From the NCBI GenBank assembly GCA_009377845.1, contig WHTE01000010.1, positions 1 through 47,189 on the forward strand: a stretch of 47,189 nucleotides of DNA. The letters run 5' to 3'. A program made the translations under genes and the position numbers. The notes under the pieces were generated by a model, which saw nothing but the letters and a program-made list of their open reading frames with translations, was not told where the DNA came from and did not search any database. Position 1 is the stretch's first letter; the number at the start of each line of letters is the position of its first letter. This DNA is from Nitrospirales bacterium. Its GTDB lineage: Bacteria > Nitrospirota > Nitrospiria > Nitrospirales > UBA8639. Below, in pieces: positions 16,062 through 47,161 of the stretch.

Positions 16062-16631
16062 ATGAAACGCAACCAATCATTTTTTTATTCTACCATCATC
16101 ATCGGAATTGGAGCTCTGTCCTTGTGCTTGATCCCTATCGCGCCCACTCCGGCCAATTCGGCTGATGTCGCATTCATCCTTTCCTCTTCTACGCTTCGTC
16201 CCTCATTACTCGGGGGAATGAACCACCCACAGAAACCCCTCCACAGCGACGACACCTTAGCAGCCTTAACAATCTACCTAGAAGCCCGTGGAGAAAGCTT
16301 TGCAGGAAAGATGGCTGTCGCTGCCGTCATTCGGAATCGGATGAATCACAAATACCACAGCGATGGCACCGTAAAGGGCACGGTCCTCCGCGCCAAACAG
16401 TTCGAACCGTGGATAGGGCGCAATCCTGAGAAAGTGGGATTTGATCCAACAAATCGCAAGATGCAGGAAAGCTTATTAGCCTGGAAACTTGTTCAAGATG
16501 GGCGGAATGTCGTGGACGGCGCGGTATTATTTTACAATCCCCAACTCGTCAAGACTCCTCGTTGGGCTCAAGTTAACCGAAAAGTGGCAAAGATTGGTGG
16601 ACACGAATTTTTCAACAGGCACACCATTTAA
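16062..16631 (+). CDS. SleB/CwlJ-type cell wall hydrolase
   Basis: A 189-residue protein with an N-terminal signal (SFFYSTIIIGIGALSLCLI) and a Hydrolase_2 (SleB-like) domain. ALTIYLEARGESFAGKMAVA holds the catalytic Glu74, and VAAVIRNRM and VDGAVLFYNPQ follow. The family are lytic transglycosylases that cut peptidoglycan, so it should act in the periplasm. The start was set at the ATG preceded by AAAGAGG, and longer frames lack a signal. A sigma-54 promoter lies upstream. Its stop codon overlaps the stop of the convergent sigma factor gene. Confidence 0.88.
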   Translation: MKRNQSFFYSTIIIGIGALSLCLIPIAPTPANSADVAFILSSSTLRPSLLGGMNHPQKPLHSDDTLAALTIYLEARGESFAGKMAVAAVIRNRMNHKYHSDGTVKGTVLRAKQFEPWIGRNPEKVGFDPTNRKMQESLLAWKLVQDGRNVVDGAVLFYNPQLVKTPRWAQVNRKVAKIGGHEFFNRHTI

Positions 16632-17503
16632 CTAGACACCTGCGTTTTTCGTAAATTTTTAGGTCGGGTTGCTCTAGCTCCCCCATCCTCAATGCGTTTC
16701 AACTCGATGCGTAAATGCCTGAGTGCGCCTGAATGCACCCTGCAAACGCCAGATTCGGTGAGACCCAGTTGGCCGCCAATTTCTTTCATCGTCAATCCGG
16801 TGTGATAATATAATCGCAGAACTTCTTGCTGGCGTTCCGATAAGGTCACAAGGGCCGCATGCAAAGCGGCTTTCATTTCTGAATCAGCACAGGCCACGAA
16901 AGGATCCTGATGGTCGACATCAGGTAATATATCCCGGAGCGTACACCCCTCTTCCCCTGGCCCAACAGGTTCATCCAGACTGACTAATTTGGGATCACAG
17001 CCCTCTACTCCTTCTATTTCTTCGGCGGGAATTCCTAACAAGATAGCCAATTCCTGTGTCGTCGGTGGCATGCCGTTTTTCTGTAAATGCTCCTCAACGA
17101 TCTGTCTCATTTGATCCCGGCGGGACCGAACGGACCGTGGGACCCAATCCATCGCCCGAATTTCGTCCAACATCATTCCGCGAATCCGATATTCTGCAAA
17201 TGTGCGAAATTTAATATCGCGAGTTGGATCAAAGCGCTTTAAGGCCGACAGCAAACCCATTGCCCCTGCGCTGGTTAAATCTTCGACATCCAACGAAAAT
17301 GGATTTTTGAGCGCCAGGGCCCCAGCCATTCGACGAATCATCGGCAGAAACTCCTGCAAGATCTTGGTGATTTTTTCTTGATCGAGCTGGCACTGAAACT
17401 CGACATGTGCCTCTCTATCAGGGACAACCGGTTGATAGAAAGACGGGTCGACTTCCTTGATGACTACTGCCAATTCCGTGGAATGTTGCGGGTGTTCGTC
17501 CAT
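16628..17503 (-). CDS. RNA polymerase sigma factor, FliA/WhiG (sigma-28) type
   Basis: A 291-residue group 3 sigma factor. Region 2 reads AGAMGLLSALKRFDP and FRTFAEYRIRGMMLDEIR, followed by the FliA/WhiG signature MDWVPRSVRSRR. Region 3 follows, and region 4 has LSERQQEVLRLYY and LTMKEIGGQLGLTESGVCR. FliA homologues drive late flagellar genes, but no flagellar gene is in this window, so the regulon is unknown. The ATG has GGAAAGG upstream. The gene is preceded by a c-di-GMP riboswitch and an intrinsic terminator. Its 3' end overlaps the hydrolase stop. fliA is possible as a symbol but not certain. Confidence 0.9.
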   Translation of the reverse strand: MDEHPQHSTELAVVIKEVDPSFYQPVVPDREAHVEFQCQLDQEKITKILQEFLPMIRRMAGALALKNPFSLDVEDLTSAGAMGLLSALKRFDPTRDIKFRTFAEYRIRGMMLDEIRAMDWVPRSVRSRRDQMRQIVEEHLQKNGMPPTTQELAILLGIPAEEIEGVEGCDPKLVSLDEPVGPGEEGCTLRDILPDVDHQDPFVACADSEMKAALHAALVTLSERQQEVLRLYYHTGLTMKEIGGQLGLTESGVCRVHSGALRHLRIELKRIEDGGARATRPKNLRKTQVSS

Positions 17504-17526
17504 ATTCCGGCCTTTCCAGGGTGACC

Positions 17527-17558
17527 AAAAAAAAACGCCCAATTCCGGGGAATGGGCG
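17527..17558 (-). terminator. Intrinsic terminator in the sigma factor leader
   Basis: On the minus strand, CGCCCA/TGGGCG plus TTCC/GGAA form a GC-rich hairpin (about 17536-17558), followed at once by nine T residues (17527-17535). It lies between the c-di-GMP aptamer and the sigma factor ribosome site, 24 bases before the ATG. This is the expected place for the expression platform of a transcriptional riboswitch. Confidence 0.85.
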
Positions 17559-17583
17559 CATGAACGAACGCACGGAACTACTC

Positions 17584-17683
17584 ACACAGTTCGGTAACCA
17601 GACCAACCCTGAAATAAGCATTCTCTCAGGGTCTCTTGGCTTTGCGCCCTACCCTCGCGGATAGTTTGCCCTTGTCACCTGTT
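17584..17683 (-). ncRNA. Cyclic-di-GMP-I (GEMM-I) riboswitch aptamer
   Basis: Read on the minus strand, the region carries all GEMM-I landmarks in order: CAAGGGCAAAC, helix P2 CTATCC-GCGA-GGGTAG closed by a GNRA tetraloop, GGGCGCAAAGCC, a variable P3 helix (CCCTGA/TCAGGG), and GGTTACCG. P1 closes as GGTGAC/GTTACC. The base equivalent to G20 of the Vibrio Vc2 aptamer is G, which favours c-di-GMP over cyclic GMP-AMP. The terminator just downstream implies control of sigma factor transcription. Whether ligand turns it on or off is not decidable by eye. Confidence 0.9.
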
Positions 17684-17978
17684 TAATTCGTTATCCTATA
17701 ATCAAAACCTCATGTTAGTGGTGGTCATTGGATGCTTCTTAACTAAATGCCTGCCTTCTAGAACCACAATTTCTTCTGGCGTTCGATTCCTTCCTCTGTG
17801 CCTGTGTTATCGGATCCGAGTCATGGGGAGTTAAGAAAAAAACTTGAGTGGTCGTGAGAAAAAATGACAAATTCATACATTGAGAGGTATCGAAGAAAAA
17901 CCTTAAAGCGGGATGTTAAGAATAACGAAAAACTCGATCGGTTTCCCTCAACTTTTTTTCAGAAAAATCATTGAAAGC
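17684..17978. other. Intergenic region upstream of the riboswitch
   Basis: Roughly 295 bases with no plausible gene between the riboswitch and lptG, both on the minus strand. The riboswitch promoter must lie here. The minus strand shows TAAC, 15 bases, then TAGGATAA ending near 17692, which loosely resembles a sigma-28 promoter. A sigma-70 reading with TATAGG as -10 is also possible. T-rich tracts near 17950-17960 might help end lptG transcription, but no clean hairpin is visible. Confidence 0.35.
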
Positions 17979-19067
17979 TCATTTTAACTTCAAAAACAGA
18001 TTGATCCCAATCATCAGAAACATGACCGTGGCAATCCAACTTCCAATCACCGGCAGGACCGCCCCATTGCGGCCCAAGACAATGCCAACCGAATGCGCCG
18101 CCCAAAAGAAAAACCCGATAACCAGAGTTTGACCAAGCCCTTTGGCCACTCCCACCCCACGCACCCCACTTCCCCGAAAACTCACCGAGACCCCTAACAG
18201 CGTCATCACCAGAGGAACAAATGAATAAGCAATGCGGGCCCAATAGTCGGTCAAAAATCGATGAGGACTTTGCCCATCTTTCGCCACATGCTGAACATAG
18301 TCATATAATTGATACAGAGACATATGCTCTGGAGACTGGGCCAGCCAATTCCGAAAATCATCCGGCGTAAGAGAGAGGGGCAGCACTTGCCGTGGTATTT
18401 CCGTCACTTGTATTCGTTCTTCTTCCTTAAAGGTTCGCTGAATCACATGTTCCATAACCCATTCAGAATTTGAAAACGATGCCCGTTCCGCCACAAGAAT
18501 CTCCTTGAGACCGAAGGGATCACCCAGCGCGTACTGATGAATTCCATTCAAACGAATACCATCTTCTTCCACCGAGTCAATCTGGAGGAGGAGGTTGCTC
18601 CCCACCCGAAGCCATAAACGGTCAGGAGTAAATAAGAGAGGCTCTGGCTTATTTTGGATCAACACCGATTGGACATATTCTGCTTTGATATTGGCCAAGG
18701 GAATCAAGACAGCCGTTAAACTTAGCGCCACGACACTCACGAGGGCTCCAAAGACAAAAAACGGCGTGGCAATTTGATAAAAACTTAAGCCACAACTGCG
18801 CATCGCAGTTATTTCACGAGTCCGGTTAAGGCCACCGACCGTCAAGATCGAAGCCATCAGGGCAGCCAGCGGGGCAAGTAAAAACGCAATTTCGGGAACC
18901 CGATAGACAAAAAAACTGAAGATGACCATTAAGTCCGCATCATATTTTAAAAACTTCCTTAACTTTTCAAAAAAATCCACAACCAGATAAATCGTCAGCA
19001 CCATCACGAGGCACATCAAAAAAACCCGGCTGAATTTTCCAAATACATACCAGGAAATTTTTTTCAT
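17979..19067 (-). CDS. lptG: LPS export permease LptG
   Basis: LptG is one of two membrane subunits of the LptB2FG ABC transporter, which extracts LPS from the inner membrane. The 362-residue protein has the YjgP/YjgQ layout: three N-terminal membrane spans, a periplasmic beta-jellyroll domain (about residues 140-260), and three C-terminal spans. The cytoplasmic coupling segment NRTREITAMRSCGLSFYQI is typical. It follows lptF by 28 bases, the usual order lptF-lptG. lptB is elsewhere. Confidence 0.92.
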   Translation of the reverse strand: MKKISWYVFGKFSRVFLMCLVMVLTIYLVVDFFEKLRKFLKYDADLMVIFSFFVYRVPEIAFLLAPLAALMASILTVGGLNRTREITAMRSCGLSFYQIATPFFVFGALVSVVALSLTAVLIPLANIKAEYVQSVLIQNKPEPLLFTPDRLWLRVGSNLLLQIDSVEEDGIRLNGIHQYALGDPFGLKEILVAERASFSNSEWVMEHVIQRTFKEEERIQVTEIPRQVLPLSLTPDDFRNWLAQSPEHMSLYQLYDYVQHVAKDGQSPHRFLTDYWARIAYSFVPLVMTLLGVSVSFRGSGVRGVGVAKGLGQTLVIGFFFWAAHSVGIVLGRNGAVLPVIGSWIATVMFLMIGINLFLKLK

Positions 19068-35493: not shown

Positions 35494-38400
35494 ATGATTG
35501 TCGACACACTCGAAAACGATCCGCTGTGGTACAAAGATGCCATTATTTACGAACTCCATGTTCGGGCATTTTGCGATAGCAACGCCGATGGCATTGGCGA
35601 TTTTAAAGGGTTAACCCACAAACTCGATTATCTCCAGGATCTGGGTGTGACCGCGATCTGGCTTCTGCCCTTTTGTTCTTCTCCTTTACGGGACGATGGC
35701 TATGACATTTCAGATTACACCAATATTCATCCGCATTATGGAACACGGCGGGACTTCCAGGGGTTTGTCCGGGAAGCCCATCGCCGAGGATTGCGGGTAA
35801 TCACGGAACTGGTGGTGAATCACACTTCGGACCAACACCCCTGGTTTCAACGTGCGCGCAAGACTCCCCCCGGCAGCAAATGGCGAAATTGGTACGTGTG
35901 GAGTGAGACGCCCGATCTGTACTCGGACACCCGCATTATTTTCAAAGACACCGAACATTCGAATTGGACCTGGGACCCGGTGGCCAAAGCGTATTTCTGG
36001 CATCGCTTTTTCTCCCACCAGCCTGACCTCAATTACGACAACCCTGATGTGCAAAAGGCGATCTTTGAGGTCTTGGATTTCTGGCTGGAAATGGGAGTGG
36101 ACGGCTTGCGGCTGGACGCCGTGCCTTATCTCTACGAACGGGAAGGCACCAATTGCGAAAACCTCCCGGAAACCCATGCGTTCCTCAAATCGTTAAGAAC
36201 GCACGTCGATAAGAAATTCCAAAACCGCCTGTTCCTGGCGGAGGCGAATCAATGGCCGGAAGATGCCGCCGCCTATTTCGGGAATGGCGACGAATGCCAT
36301 ATGAACTTTCATTTCCCCTTGATGCCCCGGCTCTTCATGGCCATGCAAATGGAAGATCGATTTCCGATTATCGATATCCTGGAACAAACTCCCGCCATCC
36401 CGGAATCCTGTCAATGGGGGCTCTTTTTGCGCAATCACGACGAACTCACACTGGAAATGGTGACGGATGAAGAACGGGATTATATGTACCGGGTCTTTGC
36501 CCATGATAAGCAGGCCCGGATCAATCTGGGGATCCGGCGCCGCTTGACCCCACTGTTGGGAAATGACCGGAAAAAGATTGAGCTGATGTACAGCTTGTTG
36601 TTTTCGATGCCGGGCACGCCGGTCATCTATTACGGCGAAGAGATCGGGATGGGCGATAACTTTTATTTGGGCGACCGGAACGGAGTCCGGACTCCCATGC
36701 AATGGAGTTCGGATCGCAATGCCGGCTTCTCCTATGGCAATCCCCAGAAACTCTATCTCCCGATTATCATTGACCCCGAATATCATTACGAGGCGATCAA
36801 TGTCGAACTGCAACAAAACAACGCCCAATCCCCCCTCTGGTGGATGAAGCGCATCGTCTCCCTGCGTAAACGCTATAAGGTCTTTGGACGGGGATCAATT
36901 GAATTTCTCCATCCTTCCAACCGGAAAGTCCTGGTCTTCCTTCGACGTTATCTGGACGAAACCATTCTTGTGGCGGTCAACTTATCCCGCCACGCGCAAT
37001 GGGTCGAGCTCGATCTCGCTGAATTCAAAGGGCGACGTCCCCTGACATTGTTCGGGCGGAGTAAATTTCCGGCCATCGGTGATTTGCCGTATTTGTTAAC
37101 GCTGAGCGGGCATACCTTTTACTGGTTCGTCCTGGAACCGGTTGAAGCAGGAAAACCCGAGTTGCCCGGGAAAGCGGAACACGGGTTGCCCACCATCACC
37201 ATCGCGAAAGATTGGGATCACCTCATCCACAAACGGGAAAAGGCCAAACTGGAGAATATTTTACCTCAGTACCTGCAAGGCCGACGGTGGTTTGGCGGCA
37301 AAGCCCGCACGATGCAAATCGTGGAAATCACGGAAGTGATTCCTATTCCGCAGGAAGATCCCTTAGCCGTCCTCGCGCTCATCCGCGTGGAATACACCGA
37401 GGGAGAACCGGAGACCTATCTCCTGCCCTTGCGGTATCTTCCGGCCGATCGCATGGCCCTCCTTCTGGATTCGCCGGCAGCCATTGCGCGCGTGCGAGTC
37501 AAAATGAAAGACGGCGAGCAGGAAGGCCTGCTCATCGATGCGATCTGGGATCGGGAATTTCAAAAATTGCTGTTGGACAGTATATCCCGAAACCGCCGGT
37601 TTAATGGCCCTGCAGGCGATCTGGTCACTCATGTCATGAAAACATTTCGACGGCAGCTTCTGAAAGAGGTCCCCACCCTTGAACCTACTCTGCTCAAGGC
37701 GGAACAAAGCAACTCCTCCGTGTTGTTCGGGCACCAATTCATCTTAAAGCTGTACCGCCGGGCTGAAGTCGGCGTGAATCCCGACTTTGAAATTGGACGG
37801 TTTTTAACTCAGAAAGGATTTTCGCATATCGCTCCCTTAGCCGGAGCCATCGAATATCAACGGGACAATGGCGAAGTCCTGACGTTTGGCATTTTGCAAC
37901 AATTTGTTCAAAACGAAGGTGATGCCTGGAAATACACTTTGGATGAACTGGGTCGCTATCTGGAAGAAGCCTTAACCCATCCCACCGCCATCACGACCTC
38001 GTCCATTCCTCATAAATCTCTGATGGCCTTAGTGGGCGAGGAAATTCCGACTACCGCCCGCGAATGGATCGGCCCGTATCTGGAGGAAGCACGGCTCCTG
38101 GGCCTTCGAACGGGAGAATTGCACGCCGCCCTTGCCTCGGATTCCGAAGACCCGGAGTTTGCGCCTGAACCGTTCACAGATTTTTACCGGCGGGGCCTCT
38201 ATCAAAGCATGCTGGGAACGGTCAATATGAACTTTCCGCTTCTCCGCTCCCAGATCAAAGGACTCCATGACCCCGTGCAAGCCCTGGCGAAACACGTGCT
38301 GGAGGGAGAAGGCCGAATCCGCAAACGTCTGCTCACGATACGGGACCGGAAACTCAAGTGCGCCCGTATCCGGTGCCATGGCGACTACCATCTCGGCCAG

Positions 38401-38826
38401 GTGTTGTATACCGGAAAAGATTTTATCATCATTGATTTTGAGGGCGAACCGGCCAGGCCGTTGAGTGTCAGACGACTCAAGGAATCCCCGCTGCGTGACG
38501 TCGCGGGCATGTTACGTTCATTTCATTATGCGGCACAGGCCTCCTCGATCGGATTGGTCCCGGGAGTCCGGCCGGAAGACTTTTCCCTACTCGACCCATG
38601 GTCACGATACTGGCAATTATGGGTCAGCGTCAGTTACCTCAAGGCGTATCTCTCGGTCAAAGAGGTCACGGAAATTCTGCCCCAGTCATTCGACGACATT
38701 CAAATTTTATTGAATGGCTATTTACTGCAAAAAGCGATGTATGAACTCGGCTATGAACTCAATAATCGCCCTGACTGGGTGCGCATTCCCCTGGATGGTA
38801 TCGACCAGATTTTGGAAGTTGACTGA
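35494..38826 (+). CDS. treS: Trehalose synthase fused to maltokinase (TreS-Mak)
   Basis: An 1110-residue fusion. Residues 1-550 are a GH13 trehalose synthase that interconverts trehalose and maltose. The catalytic Asp (about 206, in DGLRLDAVPYLY), Glu (about 249, LFLAEANQWP) and Asp (about 316, RNHDEL) are present. From about residue 575 is a maltokinase (Pep2) domain that phosphorylates maltose with ATP, with QGRRWFGGKAR, the catalytic HGDYHLGQV (about 963) and IIDFEGEPARPL. The product maltose-1-phosphate is the substrate of GlgE, encoded 144 bases downstream. The start ATG has GGAAAGG upstream. Confidence 0.96.
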   Translation: MIVDTLENDPLWYKDAIIYELHVRAFCDSNADGIGDFKGLTHKLDYLQDLGVTAIWLLPFCSSPLRDDGYDISDYTNIHPHYGTRRDFQGFVREAHRRGLRVITELVVNHTSDQHPWFQRARKTPPGSKWRNWYVWSETPDLYSDTRIIFKDTEHSNWTWDPVAKAYFWHRFFSHQPDLNYDNPDVQKAIFEVLDFWLEMGVDGLRLDAVPYLYEREGTNCENLPETHAFLKSLRTHVDKKFQNRLFLAEANQWPEDAAAYFGNGDECHMNFHFPLMPRLFMAMQMEDRFPIIDILEQTPAIPESCQWGLFLRNHDELTLEMVTDEERDYMYRVFAHDKQARINLGIRRRLTPLLGNDRKKIELMYSLLFSMPGTPVIYYGEEIGMGDNFYLGDRNGVRTPMQWSSDRNAGFSYGNPQKLYLPIIIDPEYHYEAINVELQQNNAQSPLWWMKRIVSLRKRYKVFGRGSIEFLHPSNRKVLVFLRRYLDETILVAVNLSRHAQWVELDLAEFKGRRPLTLFGRSKFPAIGDLPYLLTLSGHTFYWFVLEPVEAGKPELPGKAEHGLPTITIAKDWDHLIHKREKAKLENILPQYLQGRRWFGGKARTMQIVEITEVIPIPQEDPLAVLALIRVEYTEGEPETYLLPLRYLPADRMALLLDSPAAIARVRVKMKDGEQEGLLIDAIWDREFQKLLLDSISRNRRFNGPAGDLVTHVMKTFRRQLLKEVPTLEPTLLKAEQSNSSVLFGHQFILKLYRRAEVGVNPDFEIGRFLTQKGFSHIAPLAGAIEYQRDNGEVLTFGILQQFVQNEGDAWKYTLDELGRYLEEALTHPTAITTSSIPHKSLMALVGEEIPTTAREWIGPYLEEARLLGLRTGELHAALASDSEDPEFAPEPFTDFYRRGLYQSMLGTVNMNFPLLRSQIKGLHDPVQALAKHVLEGEGRIRKRLLTIRDRKLKCARIRCHGDYHLGQVLYTGKDFIIIDFEGEPARPLSVRRLKESPLRDVAGMLRSFHYAAQASSIGLVPGVRPEDFSLLDPWSRYWQLWVSVSYLKAYLSVKEVTEILPQSFDDIQILLNGYLLQKAMYELGYELNNRPDWVRIPLDGIDQILEVD

Positions 38827-38969
38827 TCGTCCTGATGGCGTTGCCTGAGCCGTGAGCATGCCTGACTCACGGGTGATCGACAACAATATCAGGCCTTCTT
38901 GAAGGGGAACCATCGCGAATCGTCATCCCGGCACAAATATCCGACAAGCCAACCACGAAGGAGTGCTTC

Positions 38970-40958
38970 ATGCCCAACATGCCAAAAACCCTGCAAACCC
39001 TGATCATTGAACATGTCGAGCCCGAGCTGGACGGAGGGCGCTATCCGATTAAGCGGATCGTCGGCGAGCACCTGGACATCACAGCCGACATTTTCAAGGA
39101 AGGCCACGACACCATCGGCGCCGTGCTTCGCTATAAAGTGCTGGGAAGGAAAGAATGGTTGGAAACGCCCATGCACCATGTCGATAACGACCGGTGGGCT
39201 GGATCGTTCCACCTCTCGGAAAACACCCGCTATCTGTATTCAGTGGGGGCCTATGTCAAAAGCTTCGAAACCTGGCGAGTTGAACTCACCAAGAAACACG
39301 GGGTGCTTCCAGACCTTTCGAGTGAATTATTGGAAGGAGAGGCGCATGTCAAAGACGCCAGGGCCAGGGCCAAAGGTCCCGATAAATCCGAGCTGAAACT
39401 CTGGCTGGATAAATGGAAGTCCGCTTCCGACCAGGAAGACCGGATCGCCATCGCCTTAGATCCGATTGTGGCCGCACTGGTCGGCCAGCACGAACTACGG
39501 GCCGCATGGTCCACCTATGAGAAAGAATTGGAAGTGATTGTAGACCGTGAGCGGGCCAGGCATGGCGCGTGGTATGAAATATTTCCCCGATCGGAAGGGA
39601 CTGTGCCGGGAAAAGGGGGCACGTTTAAAGATTGCGAACAACGCCTTCCGGCCATTCGGGATATGGGGTTTGATGTCCTCTACCTCACGCCGATTCATCC
39701 TATCGGGGAGACCAACCGCAAGGGCCGCAACAACAGCCTGAAAGCCAAGCCAGGCGACCCTGGCAGTCCCTGGGCCATCGGCAGCCGGCATGGCGGGCAT
39801 GATGCCATCGAGCCGGCGCTTGGCACGATCCAGGACTTTGACCATTTTCAACAAACCGTCAGAAACCATGGCATGGAGGTCGCGTTGGATATCGCCATCA
39901 ATGCCACGCCGGATCATCCTTACGTTACACAACACCCGGAGTGGTTCAAACAACGCCCGGACGGGACGATCAAGTACGCCGAGAACCCTCCCAAAAAGTA
40001 TGAAGACATTTACGGATTTGATTTCTATTCTGAAGCCTGGCAGAACATCTGGCAGGAAATGAAGCGGGTCTTCCTCTTTTGGATCGAGCATGGAGTCAAA
40101 ATTTTTCGAGTGGATAATCCGCACACCAAACCCGTTATCTTCTGGGAATGGCTCATTCGGGAAATCCAACTGGACCATCCGGATGTGCTGTTTCTCGCAG
40201 AAGCCTTCACCCGTCCCAAAATGATGCGGGTGCTGGCGAAAGCCGGGTATACACAGTCGTACACGTATTTCACGTGGCGGAATTCCAAAGGAGAAATGAC
40301 CGAATACCTGACCGAATTAACCCAGACCCAAATGAAAGATTATTTCCGGCCGAATTTTTTCGCGAACACCCCGGACATCCTGCCGGAAATTCTCCAGCAG
40401 GGCGGTCGGCCGGCCTTTAAGTTCCGTCTCGTGCTCGCCGCCACGCTCTCCCCGTCCTACGGGATCTACAATAGCTACGAACTGTGTGAGAATCGGGCGA
40501 TCCCCGGAACGGAGGAATATCAGGATTCGGAAAAATATGAAATCCGGCACTGGGATTGGGATCGTCCCGGAAACATCCGCGACTATATCACCCGCATCAA
40601 TCAGATCCGACGGGACAATCCCGCATTGCATATATTTACCAATCTGCGGTTTTACCAATCCGACAACGACCACATTCTCTTTTATGGAAAAATGAATGCC
40701 GACAACACGAACGTGCTCTTGTTCGTGATCAATATGGATCCCTATACCGTGCATGAGGCTCACCTGCGAATCCCAATTGAGGACTGCGGGATTGGCGAAC
40801 AGGACACCTATCAAATGCATGAACTGATTCAGGATACCCGCCATCAAGTCGTGGGGAGGGATTATACCATTCGATTGGACCCTAACCAGGAACCGGCAGC
40901 CATTTTCGCGCTCCGCCGCTGGATCCGCCGGGAAAGCGACTTCGACTATTTCATGTAA
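38970..40958 (+). CDS. glgE: Alpha-1,4-glucan:maltose-1-phosphate maltosyltransferase GlgE
   Basis: A 662-residue GH13_3 enzyme that adds maltosyl units from maltose-1-phosphate to alpha-1,4-glucan. An N-terminal beta domain precedes AWYEIFPRSEG, the barrel, the nucleophile Asp (about 380) in IFRVDNPHTKP, the acid/base Glu (about 410) in FLAEAFTRPKMM, and TYFTWRNSKGEMTEYLTEL. The usual region before SPDHP reads DIAINATPDHPYV here, a small variation. It acts with TreS-Mak upstream. A branching enzyme gene is not in the window. AAGGAG lies seven bases before the ATG. Confidence 0.97.
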   Translation: MPNMPKTLQTLIIEHVEPELDGGRYPIKRIVGEHLDITADIFKEGHDTIGAVLRYKVLGRKEWLETPMHHVDNDRWAGSFHLSENTRYLYSVGAYVKSFETWRVELTKKHGVLPDLSSELLEGEAHVKDARARAKGPDKSELKLWLDKWKSASDQEDRIAIALDPIVAALVGQHELRAAWSTYEKELEVIVDRERARHGAWYEIFPRSEGTVPGKGGTFKDCEQRLPAIRDMGFDVLYLTPIHPIGETNRKGRNNSLKAKPGDPGSPWAIGSRHGGHDAIEPALGTIQDFDHFQQTVRNHGMEVALDIAINATPDHPYVTQHPEWFKQRPDGTIKYAENPPKKYEDIYGFDFYSEAWQNIWQEMKRVFLFWIEHGVKIFRVDNPHTKPVIFWEWLIREIQLDHPDVLFLAEAFTRPKMMRVLAKAGYTQSYTYFTWRNSKGEMTEYLTELTQTQMKDYFRPNFFANTPDILPEILQQGGRPAFKFRLVLAATLSPSYGIYNSYELCENRAIPGTEEYQDSEKYEIRHWDWDRPGNIRDYITRINQIRRDNPALHIFTNLRFYQSDNDHILFYGKMNADNTNVLLFVINMDPYTVHEAHLRIPIEDCGIGEQDTYQMHELIQDTRHQVVGRDYTIRLDPNQEPAAIFALRRWIRRESDFDYFM

Positions 40959-43010: not shown

Positions 43011-44048
43011 ATGCCGCGCAACGACCAAATGATTCGGCAGTTGCACCTCCTCCGTGAATTGGAAAGCCTCTGCGGCAAAACCCTCCGGGAACTGACCCGA
43101 GCCTTACCCGCAGACTACTCCCGCCATGAACGCACCGTCCGCCGGGATCTCGAAGCCCTGGAAGCCGCAGGGTTCCCCCTCATCACGGAAAAAATCAACG
43201 GCCAGGTTCGGTGGCGATTCATCGACGGCTACCGCAACACACTCGCGTTAGGATTTTCCCCCAGTGAAATCCTCGCCCTCCGGCTCACGCGCCAATTGTT
43301 AGCCCCCTTAGAAGGCACGGGCATTCAAGAGTCCTTGCAATCCGCCCTGGCCAAAGCCGAAGCCGGCGTGCCCAACCTCGAAGAACAAACACCCCGCCAA
43401 CTCCCCGCCATCTTTTCCTTCAACCTCGGCTCCCATAAATCCTATACATCCCACAAAGCCACCATCGCCACGCTGACCAAAGCCACGGCCAAACTCCACA
43501 CCGTGCAAATGCGGTACTTCTCCGCGGCCAGAAATCAGACCACCAGACGGGAAGTCAGCCCGTACCGGCTGTGGTACACCAACGGCGCCCTCTATCTCAT
43601 CGGCTATTGCCACCTCCGAAAAGACGTGCGCATGTTCGCGGTGGAACGCATCAAATCGGTCACCCTCACCGATCATCCGTTTCAAATCCCTTTGGAGTTC
43701 GACATCGAGGACTATGTCAAAGATGCCATCGGCATCATGCGCGGCCAACCCATCAAGGTGGAACTCCGGTTCAACACACCCACCACTGCCTGGGTTAAAG
43801 ATCGCATCTGGCACCCCACGCAAGCCCTGACGCCACTCAAAAACGGCGAACTCACCATGACGCTCACCGTGGCCGACAATCGCGAACTCGTGGGATGGAT
43901 CTTAAGCTTTGGCAGCGGCGTGCGGGTCATGCAACCCGCCTCACTCCGACAAGCCGTGCGTCAGGAAGCCAAAGCTATTGCCGACCAACCGGAAGAAATC
44001 AAAGGCCAACTCCTGAATGTTTCGTCCAAAAGAAAACGACGCGCGTGA
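43011..44048 (+). CDS. WYL-domain transcriptional regulator
   Basis: A 345-residue protein with an N-terminal helix-turn-helix (about 5-70; YSRHERTVRRDLEALEAAGF), a linker, and a WYL domain (about 150-230) with VSPYRLWYTNGALYLIGYC and RMFAVERIKSVTLTD. A C-terminal WCX-type extension is visible (VGWILSFGSGVRVMQP). Such regulators sense ligands, possibly nucleotides, and several control CRISPR or other defence genes. A cas3 gene lies 542 bases downstream in the same direction, so control of the cas genes is plausible. The ATG has CGGAG eleven bases upstream. Confidence 0.9.
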   Translation: MPRNDQMIRQLHLLRELESLCGKTLRELTRALPADYSRHERTVRRDLEALEAAGFPLITEKINGQVRWRFIDGYRNTLALGFSPSEILALRLTRQLLAPLEGTGIQESLQSALAKAEAGVPNLEEQTPRQLPAIFSFNLGSHKSYTSHKATIATLTKATAKLHTVQMRYFSAARNQTTRREVSPYRLWYTNGALYLIGYCHLRKDVRMFAVERIKSVTLTDHPFQIPLEFDIEDYVKDAIGIMRGQPIKVELRFNTPTTAWVKDRIWHPTQALTPLKNGELTMTLTVADNRELVGWILSFGSGVRVMQPASLRQAVRQEAKAIADQPEEIKGQLLNVSSKRKRRA

Positions 44049-44590: not shown

Positions 44591-47161
44591 ATGATTATTT
44601 TTGAGGAAGCTTTCAAGATTCTGACGGAAACGGAAGGGCCATTCCCTTGGCAAATAGATCTCTACAAAAAGTGGTTTGTTGATGGCAGATTTCCCTCTTC
44701 GTGCAACTTGCCCACCGGAGTGGGGAAGACATCGGTTATCGCGATATGGCTCATTGCGCTAATGAACCAGCCCGAGAAGATGCCTCGCCGCTTGGTTTAT
44801 GTGGTCAACAGGCGCACGGTGGTGGATCAGACAACGGACGAAGTCCAAAAGCTCCGTGAGAACCTCCCGAAGCTGAATGACCTGGCAGATCATACGCGAC
44901 CCCTGGCGATCAGCACCTTGCGAGGTCAGTTTGCGGACAATCGCGAGTGGGCAGCTGACCCCTCGCGACCGGCAGTGATCTGCGGGACCGTGGACATGAT
45001 CGGAAGCCGGTTGCTCTTCAGCGGTTACGGAGTCGGGTTCAAGTCAAAGCCACTACATGCCGGTTTCCTTGGTCAGGATGTGTTGTTAGTACATGACGAG
45101 GCACATCTGGAGCCGGCATTTCAAACGCTGCTTGTCGAGATCGAAAAAGAACAGAAACGTTGTAATGAGTTTCGCAAGTTTCACGTGATGGAGCTATCGG
45201 CGACATCGCGAGAGAATGGGGCTGAGGAGCAAAAGGCGAATTCGTTCGAACTGACTGAGGCCGAGAAGAACCCACCAGCTCTCATTCCCGATCTTCCGAC
45301 TAAACCGATACACCATGTGTGGCGTCGGCAGAAAGCGAATAAGGCGCTTAATCTGACTCCGATCGAGGACGAAAAAGTGTTAGCTGGGAAAATTGCAAGG
45401 CTTGCCCTGGAACACAAAGACTCAGGACGGGCTGTCTTGGTGTTCGTGCGTACCGTGGAGGACGTCGAGAAGGTTATAAAGAACCTGCCCAAGGATTCAG
45501 CCGAGCAACTAACCGGTACTCTCCGGGGTTTGGAACGAGATGGCCTGGTAAATAGGCCGATTTTTCAGCGATTCCTACCGGCGTCGAATCGCAAGAACGA
45601 TGCGTCGCCTGCCATAGGGACGGTCTACCTTGTCTGTACGAGCGCGGGCGAAGTCGGGGTTAATATCTCAGCCGATCACATGGTCTGCGACCTGTCCACA
45701 TTCGAAAGCATGACCCAACGCTTTGGCCGCGTGAACCGCTTCGGGGATCACGACGATTCCAAGATCGACGTCGTCTATTCAAAGGAGTTCAAAGAGAGTG
45801 TGCTCGACCAGCGTCGGAAGAAGGCGTTAGAACTTTTGAAGCAAATCAACAGTAACGCCAGTCCTTTAGCGCTCAGCAAACTCGACCCTGCGACCTGTCG
45901 CGAGGCCTTTGCTCCAACTCCTGCCATCCTGCCCGCCACGGATATTCTCTTCGATGCCTGGGCGCTGACGACTATTCGCGGGAAGCTTCCCGGTCGGCCC
46001 CCTGTCGAGCCGTACCTGCACGGCATCGGCATCAGCGAGTGGCAGCCTCCGGAGACCCACGTCGCATGGCGTGAGGACGTTGAGATCATCATCGGCCCTC
46101 TTCTCGAACGTTTTATGCCCGAAGACTTGCTCCAAGACTATCCAATCAAGCCGCATGAATTACTGCGTGATCGAAGCGACCGCGTATTCGCCCATCTCCA
46201 GCAGATTGCCGCAAGGCATCCCGACGCTCCGGTATGGATCGTGGACATGCGAGACAGCATAGAAATCACGACTCTTAAAAAGCTGACAGATGCCGACAAG
46301 CGCAGCATCCACAACACCACCATTCTCCTGCCGCCAGGGGTTGGAGGATTAACAGCGACCGGAATTCTAGATGGTGCTGCCGTGCAAAATAAGCCAACCG
46401 CTAATCAGGGAGGCGAAACAGATCAGATGGCCAGTGTGGTTAGCAAAGTCCCACACGACGTCGCAGATGAGTGGTACAAGGACAAGGAGAGGAAGGAAAG
46501 ACGTCGCTACCGACGTTGGGATGACAGTACTGTTCCTCCTGGAATGCGACTGGTACGTATCGTCGACATCGCTCCTGATTCAGATGGAGACGAAAAGTCC
46601 GATGGACGGCGATTCTGGTACTGGTTTGTTCAGCCTCGCTCGGCTGACGACGACGGGTCTCGAACTGCTCGAACAGCCCAAGAGCTAGCACCACACCTGC
46701 AGGCTGTCGAACGTGAAGCACTGAGGATCGCCACAAGACTTGGAATGCTCCAAAACAATCCGACAGAGGCCCAAGCAGTGATCCTCGCTGCCAAATGGCA
46801 TGACCTCGGAAAAAAACGAGACATTTGGCAGCGGTCCATCGGCAACTTAAATCCAGATATCGTGTTAGCCAAGTCAGGGCCTGGCATGAAGCCTCGGGAT
46901 ATTTCTAGTTATCGTCACGAGTTTGGATCGTTAATTGATGCAACAGCTCTTCCAGAATTTCAGAGTCTTGATGAAGAAACGAAAAATCTCGTCCTCCATC
47001 TTGTCGCCGCGCACCATGGTCGGGCACGCCCGCATTTCCCTGAAGATGAAGCGTTTGATTCCGAACACAACGGGCGTGAAGGCGACTCGCTAGAGCATTT
47101 TCAGTTTATGTCTTTACATAACCTGAGGACGCGAAGTAGCGTGTGCATTCGTCGGGTGTGA
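44591..47161 (+). CDS. cas3: Type I-G-like Cas3 helicase-nuclease, C-terminus replaced by IS sequence
   Basis: An 856-codon frame. The N-terminal helicase has Walker A LPTGVGKTS (about 39-47), DEAH at about 169, motif III ELSATSR, and motif VI MTQRFGRVNRFG. The HD nuclease domain follows at the C-terminus, with HDLGKKRDIW (His737, Asp738), a conserved HEFGS, and AAHHGRARPHFP (about 806). Helicase first and HD last is the arrangement of type I-G (formerly I-U, GSU0051-like) Cas3. After about residue 834 the frame enters IS630-type sequence (LEHFQFMSLHNLRTRSSV), so the last HD-domain residues are lost. The protein is probably impaired as a nuclease. Confidence 0.88.
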   Translation: MIIFEEAFKILTETEGPFPWQIDLYKKWFVDGRFPSSCNLPTGVGKTSVIAIWLIALMNQPEKMPRRLVYVVNRRTVVDQTTDEVQKLRENLPKLNDLADHTRPLAISTLRGQFADNREWAADPSRPAVICGTVDMIGSRLLFSGYGVGFKSKPLHAGFLGQDVLLVHDEAHLEPAFQTLLVEIEKEQKRCNEFRKFHVMELSATSRENGAEEQKANSFELTEAEKNPPALIPDLPTKPIHHVWRRQKANKALNLTPIEDEKVLAGKIARLALEHKDSGRAVLVFVRTVEDVEKVIKNLPKDSAEQLTGTLRGLERDGLVNRPIFQRFLPASNRKNDASPAIGTVYLVCTSAGEVGVNISADHMVCDLSTFESMTQRFGRVNRFGDHDDSKIDVVYSKEFKESVLDQRRKKALELLKQINSNASPLALSKLDPATCREAFAPTPAILPATDILFDAWALTTIRGKLPGRPPVEPYLHGIGISEWQPPETHVAWREDVEIIIGPLLERFMPEDLLQDYPIKPHELLRDRSDRVFAHLQQIAARHPDAPVWIVDMRDSIEITTLKKLTDADKRSIHNTTILLPPGVGGLTATGILDGAAVQNKPTANQGGETDQMASVVSKVPHDVADEWYKDKERKERRRYRRWDDSTVPPGMRLVRIVDIAPDSDGDEKSDGRRFWYWFVQPRSADDDGSRTARTAQELAPHLQAVEREALRIATRLGMLQNNPTEAQAVILAAKWHDLGKKRDIWQRSIGNLNPDIVLAKSGPGMKPRDISSYRHEFGSLIDATALPEFQSLDEETKNLVLHLVAAHHGRARPHFPEDEAFDSEHNGREGDSLEHFQFMSLHNLRTRSSVCIRRV

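Follow-up and report, generated by a model that had tools for sequence, protein, structure and literature searches.

A c-di-GMP-I riboswitch, probably a transcriptional OFF switch, in the leader of a diverged FliA/WhiG-family sigma factor gene of Nitrospirales

Introduction

Riboswitches usually govern single operons. What, then, does it mean for a c-di-GMP-I riboswitch to stand directly before the gene of an alternative sigma factor, and in which direction, with which ligand and for which promoters would it act? The question is raised by a locus of a Nitrospirales bacterium, from the order of the nitrite oxidiser Nitrospira and from a family whose members are uncultured. The stretch of DNA analysed, hereafter the window, is 47,189 bases long and belongs to a genome of 3.2 Mb in 169 contigs. 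Our reading, to which we give a probability of roughly 0.7, is that the c-di-GMP-I riboswitch in the leader of this gene, here called sigma-2, turns its transcription OFF, that the promoter is of the sigma28 type and that both belong to an arrangement in which c-di-GMP probably acts twice. If a riboswitch does govern how much of a dedicated alternative sigma factor is made, a small molecule would serve as a regulon-wide switch with no protein sensor.

Architecture of the sigma-2 leader

A cmscan search of the window against Rfam gives RF01051 (c-di-GMP-I, GEMM-I) at 17680-17590 on the minus strand, with 59.4 bits against a gathering threshold of 35 and an E-value of 3.2e-9; the alignment spans positions 1-87 of the 87 of the model, and no second Rfam match reaches the gathering thresholds in the 47,189 bases. 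The initial annotation, made from the letters alone, had proposed this riboswitch and named the covariance model as the check, and the score bears it out. The landmarks that it listed can likewise all be read in the sequence: AAGGGCAAAC, a GCGA-capped hairpin, GCGCAAAGCC, GGTTACCG and a closing P1 in which GGTGAC is paired with GTTACC.

On the minus strand, the aptamer (17590-17680) is followed by a bulged hairpin with nine U (17527-17559), the sequence GGAAAGG (17511-17517), a ribosome binding site presumed from sequence only, and the ATG at 17503 of sigma-2, a gene of 291 codons for amino acids (16628-17503). The run of nine T noted at the outset is indeed present, at 17527-17535 (A on the plus strand); it ends 23 bases 5' of the ATG by our count, not the 24 first given. 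Upstream of the aptamer, a sigma28-type promoter motif, TAAC-N15-TCCGATAA, lies at 17807-17833 on the same strand, recognised by pattern match and by its conservation before the aptamer. From its position transcription would start at about 17800, so that the presumed 5' part of the leader would cover 17681-17800. At 17500-17526 (minus strand), around the ribosome site, a short hairpin of GGTC with GGCC or GACC is possible, as judged by eye in the leaders of the same genus.

An alignment of leaders was built from 26 of the 28 that have the aptamer core; L068 and L069, in which no terminator was found at its usual place, were left out, and the leaders of a gene fragment (L059) and of a gene with no detected aptamer (L070) also stand outside it. 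Pairing in this alignment is kept in 99.8% of 425 cells for the aptamer and, over 25 distinct leaders, in 88.3% of 266 cells for the terminator, whose original proposal is thereby upheld by sequence, folds and alignment together. Taken alone, the terminator hairpin is moderately stable (-10.7 kcal/mol, z -1.67, with 12 of 200 shuffles equally good). A simple consensus scan of 17480-17985 returned no terminator and no sigma70-type promoter. Its stem rule probably misses a bulged stem, and the case for the terminator rested on folding and alignment.

Sigma-2 is a paralog of flagellar FliA

Profile searches place the sigma-2 product in the FliA/WhiG family, as first annotated: it matches TIGR02479 with 202 bits against a cut-off of 189.6, and Sigma70_r2, r3 and r4 (PF04542, PF04539 and PF04545) are all over their cut-offs. 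The identification of both riboswitch and sigma factor is therefore sound. One other match to TIGR02479 over the cut-off occurs in the genome, with 264.7 bits, on contig 148, and its two upstream neighbours resemble flhF and flhG, labels that we assigned from the translations. This gene is the canonical flagellar FliA and sigma-2 is not; the place beside flhF/flhG is occupied by the paralog, while the neighbours of sigma-2 are lptG, lptF and a convergent SleB-like hydrolase gene, with no flagellar genes among them, in agreement with the earlier remark on this point.

In a tree of 42 rows, 16 sigma-2 and 26 FliA sequences are split by a single branch with a support of 100/100, at which, by a warning of the tree program, long branches meet. 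The tree takes 16 of 29 sigma-2 sequences, and among those left out is L060 (genome G019), the gene of which runs out of frame near the C-terminus. The two groups also differ in the helix of region 4.2, which reads TESG-CR-H in all 16 sigma-2 sequences and TESR-CQ-H in all 26 FliA sequences. Of the alignments to PDB chains, the four displayed (two WhiG-type and two FliA) likewise carry R and Q at the respective places, and the form ESR..Q.H is not found in sigma-2. As this helix motif was picked as a feature by ourselves, it marks a subgroup and not an exclusion from the FliA/WhiG family. On these sequence comparisons sigma-2 is a distinct clade with a changed DNA-recognition helix. The early hunch that its regulon may not be flagellar fits both this divergence and the separate canonical FliA.

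Distribution of sigma-2 and its riboswitch

An ortholog of sigma-2 (at least 52% identity) is present in 30 of 48 family genomes, and an RF01051 match lies directly upstream of it in 29 of these 30 (coordinates compared by eye), an association which is not chance and which answers the suggestion that related genomes be searched for the same leader. In G034 the sigma-2 gene is split between two contigs, and the riboswitch precedes the N-terminal piece. No aptamer was detected before the sigma-2 gene of G016 (L070), a genome which, like every one of the 30, does hold RF01051 riboswitches. In all, RF01051 is found in 32 of the 48 genomes: each of the 30 that carry sigma-2, plus two incomplete genomes (64% and 83%) where no sigma-2 was detected. 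The 16 riboswitch-free genomes are, without exception, also without sigma-2. Among them, G015 carries, besides FliA, another homolog, untyped, at 33% identity.

A scan of named contigs, considered for the best 80 of 232 relatives, gives 25 at 52% identity or above, several of which are probably duplicates of genomes of the 48-genome set. These are labelled Nitrospirales, Nitrospirota/Nitrospirae, Nitrospiria, Nitrospira sp. and, once, Nitrospinota. The remaining relatives of the best 80 have at most 47% identity, and the 19 of them that were placed in the tree all fall with FliA.

An alternative pairing and the direction of switching

RNAalifold, given 26 leaders and no hint, pairs columns 31-36 (GGGCGC) with columns 132-137 (GCGCCC), the latter being the 5' arm of the terminator; unprompted, it thus prefers an antiterminator pairing to the terminator itself. 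In the window, the antiterminator strand GGGCGC lies inside the aptamer, at the end of P1b and in the next junction (17644-17649, minus strand), and the terminator 5' arm GCGCCC at 17554-17559 on the same strand, its partner being either the terminator 3' arm or 17644-17649. This pairing is kept in 96.7% of 150 cells. Covariation is seen in one pair only, which varies from G-C (19) to A-U (4). This gives 4 double-changed cells against 1.0 in shuffles, but 353 of 500 shuffles also yield one such pair, and the variation stays within one genus and perhaps reflects one event. RNAalifold also joined the 5' strand of the aptamer to the U-tract, a pairing that was discounted as an effect of the run of U.

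Because the aptamer strand and the terminator 3' arm are alike, the 5' arm has a choice of partner. In a mimicry test the 5' arm binds the aptamer strand better than shuffled arms do (p<=0.05) in 31 of 35 leaders, with shuffles that ignore relatedness. The exceptions are L053 (0.058), L063 (0.088), L065 (0.25) and L238 (0.21). The 35 are the terminator-bearing leaders, 26 of sigma-2 and 9 of response-regulator genes; the latter come from 16 of 18 such leaders taken, the 7 without a terminator being left outside the 35. In other target classes, assigned by crude sequence patterns, a terminator was seen in just 3 of 43 Fn3 and 3 of 16 Flp/Tad riboswitches.

Folding of the growing RNA gives the antiterminator a probability of 0.61 at nucleotide 138 and, in the ligand-free state, gives the terminator 0.997 at nucleotide 145 and 0.85 at full length. 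At ligand-free equilibrium the terminator fold is likewise favoured (-56.3 vs -54.0 kcal/mol), and a read-through model therefore needs kinetic control. Under such a model, the GGGCGC of the unliganded aptamer would pair with the nascent terminator arm GCGCCC, the terminator would come too late, RNA polymerase would read through and sigma-2 would be made. With c-di-GMP bound, GGGCGC would be locked in the aptamer, the terminator would form and sigma-2 would be low. The precedent is Cd1, before the flgB operon of C. difficile, a c-di-GMP-I OFF switch in which an antiterminator is in competition with aptamer and terminator, the latter two being present together (PMC9262584, PMC5386303); this antiterminator is described as transiently stable (PMC9262584). 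Within the limits set by covariation and equilibrium, the leader likewise combines a terminator with a rival antiterminator pairing in which an aptamer strand takes part, and an OFF mechanism, with c-di-GMP lowering sigma-2, is likely.

The opposite sign would make the leader an ON switch, in which c-di-GMP binding blocks termination and raises sigma-2. The equilibrium preference for the terminator would suit it, and a highly similar aptamer is an ON switch at pilM (PMC9262584). We regard it as unlikely: aptamer and terminator can coexist here, as in Cd1, whereas they are described as mutually exclusive in pilM, and the alternative pairing sets an aptamer strand against the terminator 5' arm, so that holding the aptamer would free the terminator. 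An effector other than c-di-GMP, for instance 3',3'-cGAMP, is more improbable still. Sensors of cGAMP belong to the same riboswitch class, and the position of G20 in Vc2 is a selectivity factor and not a hard filter (PMC9049102); at its equivalent, two sigma-2 leaders, L069 (A) and L065 (C), give a hint of altered ligand choice. Against this stand the G at that place in 26 of 28 leaders, that of the window included, and the expected A and C of the window at the places of A47 and C92. With positions by our own mapping on the Rfam alignment and residue roles as described in PMC9049102 and PMC9262584, the G, A and C at the three places favour c-di-GMP as the ligand. The genome further encodes four GGDEF proteins over the cut-off, which may likewise speak against cGAMP.

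Sigma28-type motifs before family riboswitches

The sigma28 consensus is TAAA-N15-GCCGATAA. The pattern TAA-N17-CCGATAA has a single exact match in the window, at the sigma-2 motif described above; with up to one mismatch there are 4 matches against 2.15 expected, which is not significant in the window alone. Among orthologous sigma-2 leaders, 22 of 27 score at least 9 of 12 for the motif before the aptamer and the other five just 7-8. Its distance to the aptamer is 151-162 nt in 18 of the 22, which come from the same genus and a further one, and varies elsewhere.

The motif extends to the other riboswitches of the family. These number 138 matches, of which 107, two of them sigma-2 leaders, were scored for the motif; the rest comprise the 27 other sigma-2 leaders (handled separately or too short), three matches at contig ends or below the cut-off, and G020:C77. 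A score of at least 9 of 12 within 260 nt upstream is reached by 90 of the 107, against 13% of shuffles drawn from the first 31 regions, in counts that shared leader ancestry inflates in the family and its sister families alike. With the motif masked and the clustering repeated at four thresholds, the clusters carrying it are 3 of 3, 19 of 25, 40 of 56 and 51 of 72, against 0.18, 1.6, 4.0 and 5.25 expected and 0, 0, 5 and 6 on the reverse strand; we take the second threshold (19 of 25 vs 1.6, reverse strand 0) as the non-redundant count. Unmasked 8-mer clustering was discarded after it chained 97 of the 107 regions into one of 8 clusters (motif in 4 of the 8, with 0.46 expected). In many leaders of response-regulator genes the distance from the beginning of the motif to the aptamer is 35-38 nt, which would put the transcription start at the aptamer edge.

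Genome-wide, in G000, G029 and G030, the broad pattern gives 8, 14 and 15 hits against 10, 19 and 13 in the reversed control, and the TAAAG pattern 6, 10 and 8 against 10, 15 and 12. These broad patterns thus show no excess, and the motif carries information only when it is anchored by a riboswitch. A flagellin-type pattern gives 2, 6 and 6 hits against 2, 0 and 1. A separation of the -35 elements of FliA and sigma-2 was considered by comparing TCAAGTTT/GCAAGTTT with TAAAG, and with the TAA(C/T)TC found before sigma-2; the result is suggestive, and the two are not separable with few promoters. As a separate observation, at L336, L338 and L345, in three genomes of the genus, a motif TTAAGAAT..TCCGATAA precedes a gene for a 490-aa protein with a signal-like N-terminus, with no riboswitch.

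Ten target proteins of family riboswitches were scanned: eight have a Pfam family over the cut-off, one has none and one has a match below it. The domains are FG-GAP, fn3, Flp_Fap, Tad, Response_reg (two, one with HisKA), subtilase and a galactose-binding domain. The source genome has two further c-di-GMP-I riboswitches, L001 and L002 on contig C126, which stand before genes that share an N-terminus; the product at L001 has FG-GAP repeats and a clear sigma28-type motif lies upstream, while L002 is without such a motif. Riboswitches L255, L257 and L269 precede similar genes, and the product at L257 is weakly like the BREX ATPase BrxC/D (19.5 bits, below the cut-off of 22.2).

A possible two-layer circuit

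Most of the other family riboswitches are preceded by sigma28-type motifs, which makes it probable that one gene set is under c-di-GMP control twice over. The promoter of sigma-2 would be of the sigma28 type, with its -35 end about 150 nt 5' of the aptamer, and c-di-GMP would act both on the supply of the sigma factor and on the target transcripts. In its full form, the proposal is that sigma-2, throttled by its own riboswitch, reads sigma28-type promoters of further riboswitch-bearing transcripts throughout the family, the targets being pilus, adhesin-like and response-regulator genes as well as sigma-2, with both layers operating via RNA alone. We hold this specific circuit tentatively, at somewhat under even odds, and consider the two-layer loop a good hypothesis. 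If the pairing of motif and riboswitch is driven by sigma-2, a single ligand would control one circuit at two layers, which is rare.

The motifs before riboswitch genes might instead be read by flagellar FliA, with sigma-2 serving another regulon and no feed-forward loop, which we think quite possible, though less likely than not. In these genomes flagellin motifs (TCAAGTTT..GTCGATA) resemble those of Flp pilin genes (GCAAGTTT..GTCGATA), and the attack-phase promoters of Bdellovibrio assigned to FliA have the comparable form TTAAG-N16-CCGATA (PMC3627812). What speaks for sigma-2 as the reader is its co-occurrence with the riboswitches, which are present in 30 of 30 sigma-2 genomes, with sigma-2 absent from 16 of 16 riboswitch-free ones. 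In the sister families, where 39 riboswitches were found and 21 examined for the motif, it occurs at just 5 of 21 against 2.7 expected at the 13% rate; one FliA/WhiG sigma factor over the cut-off was detected in 11 of 16 genomes searched there, and two in none. Few motifs and no second sigma factor together suggest that the coupling of motif and riboswitch goes with sigma-2. Three of the sister-family loci (L270-L272) do have the motif though their genomes hold one FliA/WhiG sigma factor, as FliA reading would have it. As a side observation, at 12 of the 21 sister-family loci (L270-L272, L276, L278-L280, L282-L284, L288 and L289) the riboswitch precedes a gene of about 117 aa resembling a flagellar rod protein, named from its translation.

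Related systems

The OFF reading of the sigma-2 leader has partial parallels. It shares with Cd1, as described, the c-di-GMP-I aptamer, the antiterminator layout and a sigma28-family gene downstream, sigD. In C. difficile, however, sigD is one among the genes of an early flagellar operon whose promoter fits the sigmaA consensus, whereas the riboswitch described here is followed at once by a stand-alone paralog, with a sigma28-type motif upstream. Bdellovibrio bacteriovorus offers a likeness in a FliA-type motif beyond flagella together with a c-di-GMP riboswitch RNA: TTAAG-N16-CCGATA is reported in 92 of 140 attack-phase promoters, far beyond flagellar genes, and merRNA, an abundant RNA with a c-di-GMP riboswitch, belongs to the same phase (PMC3627812). 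As presented there, however, no gene is conserved downstream of merRNA, and the table of that paper marks no FliA promoter for it, whereas the Nitrospirales riboswitches precede genes. In Actinobacteria, c-di-GMP restrains a FliA/WhiG-family sigma factor through RsiG-(c-di-GMP)-WhiG, a switch that in Rubrobacter controls type IV pili (PMC8325347); RsiG, as described, is a protein anti-sigma acting on the finished sigma factor, in contrast to an RNA switch in the transcript of sigma-2.

Narrow searches of the open-access literature found no paper on Nitrospira and a c-di-GMP riboswitch, and none on a c-di-GMP-I riboswitch and a sigma factor gene. As far as seen in that literature, what is new is a direct target that is a stand-alone diverged sigma factor, and the coupling of sigma28-type motif and c-di-GMP-I riboswitch across the family. 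Relative to the initial annotation, the additions are the sign (OFF being the likeliest), the antiterminator, the sigma28-type motif of sigma-2 itself and the family-wide link of motif and riboswitch.

Other genes of the window

Elsewhere on the plus strand of the window, 35494-40958 encodes an alpha-amylase/maltokinase fusion and, after it, a GlgE-type maltosyltransferase. At 43011-44048 a WYL-domain regulator precedes a Cas3-like helicase at 44591-47161 (plus strand), which has a weak Cas3 HD match.
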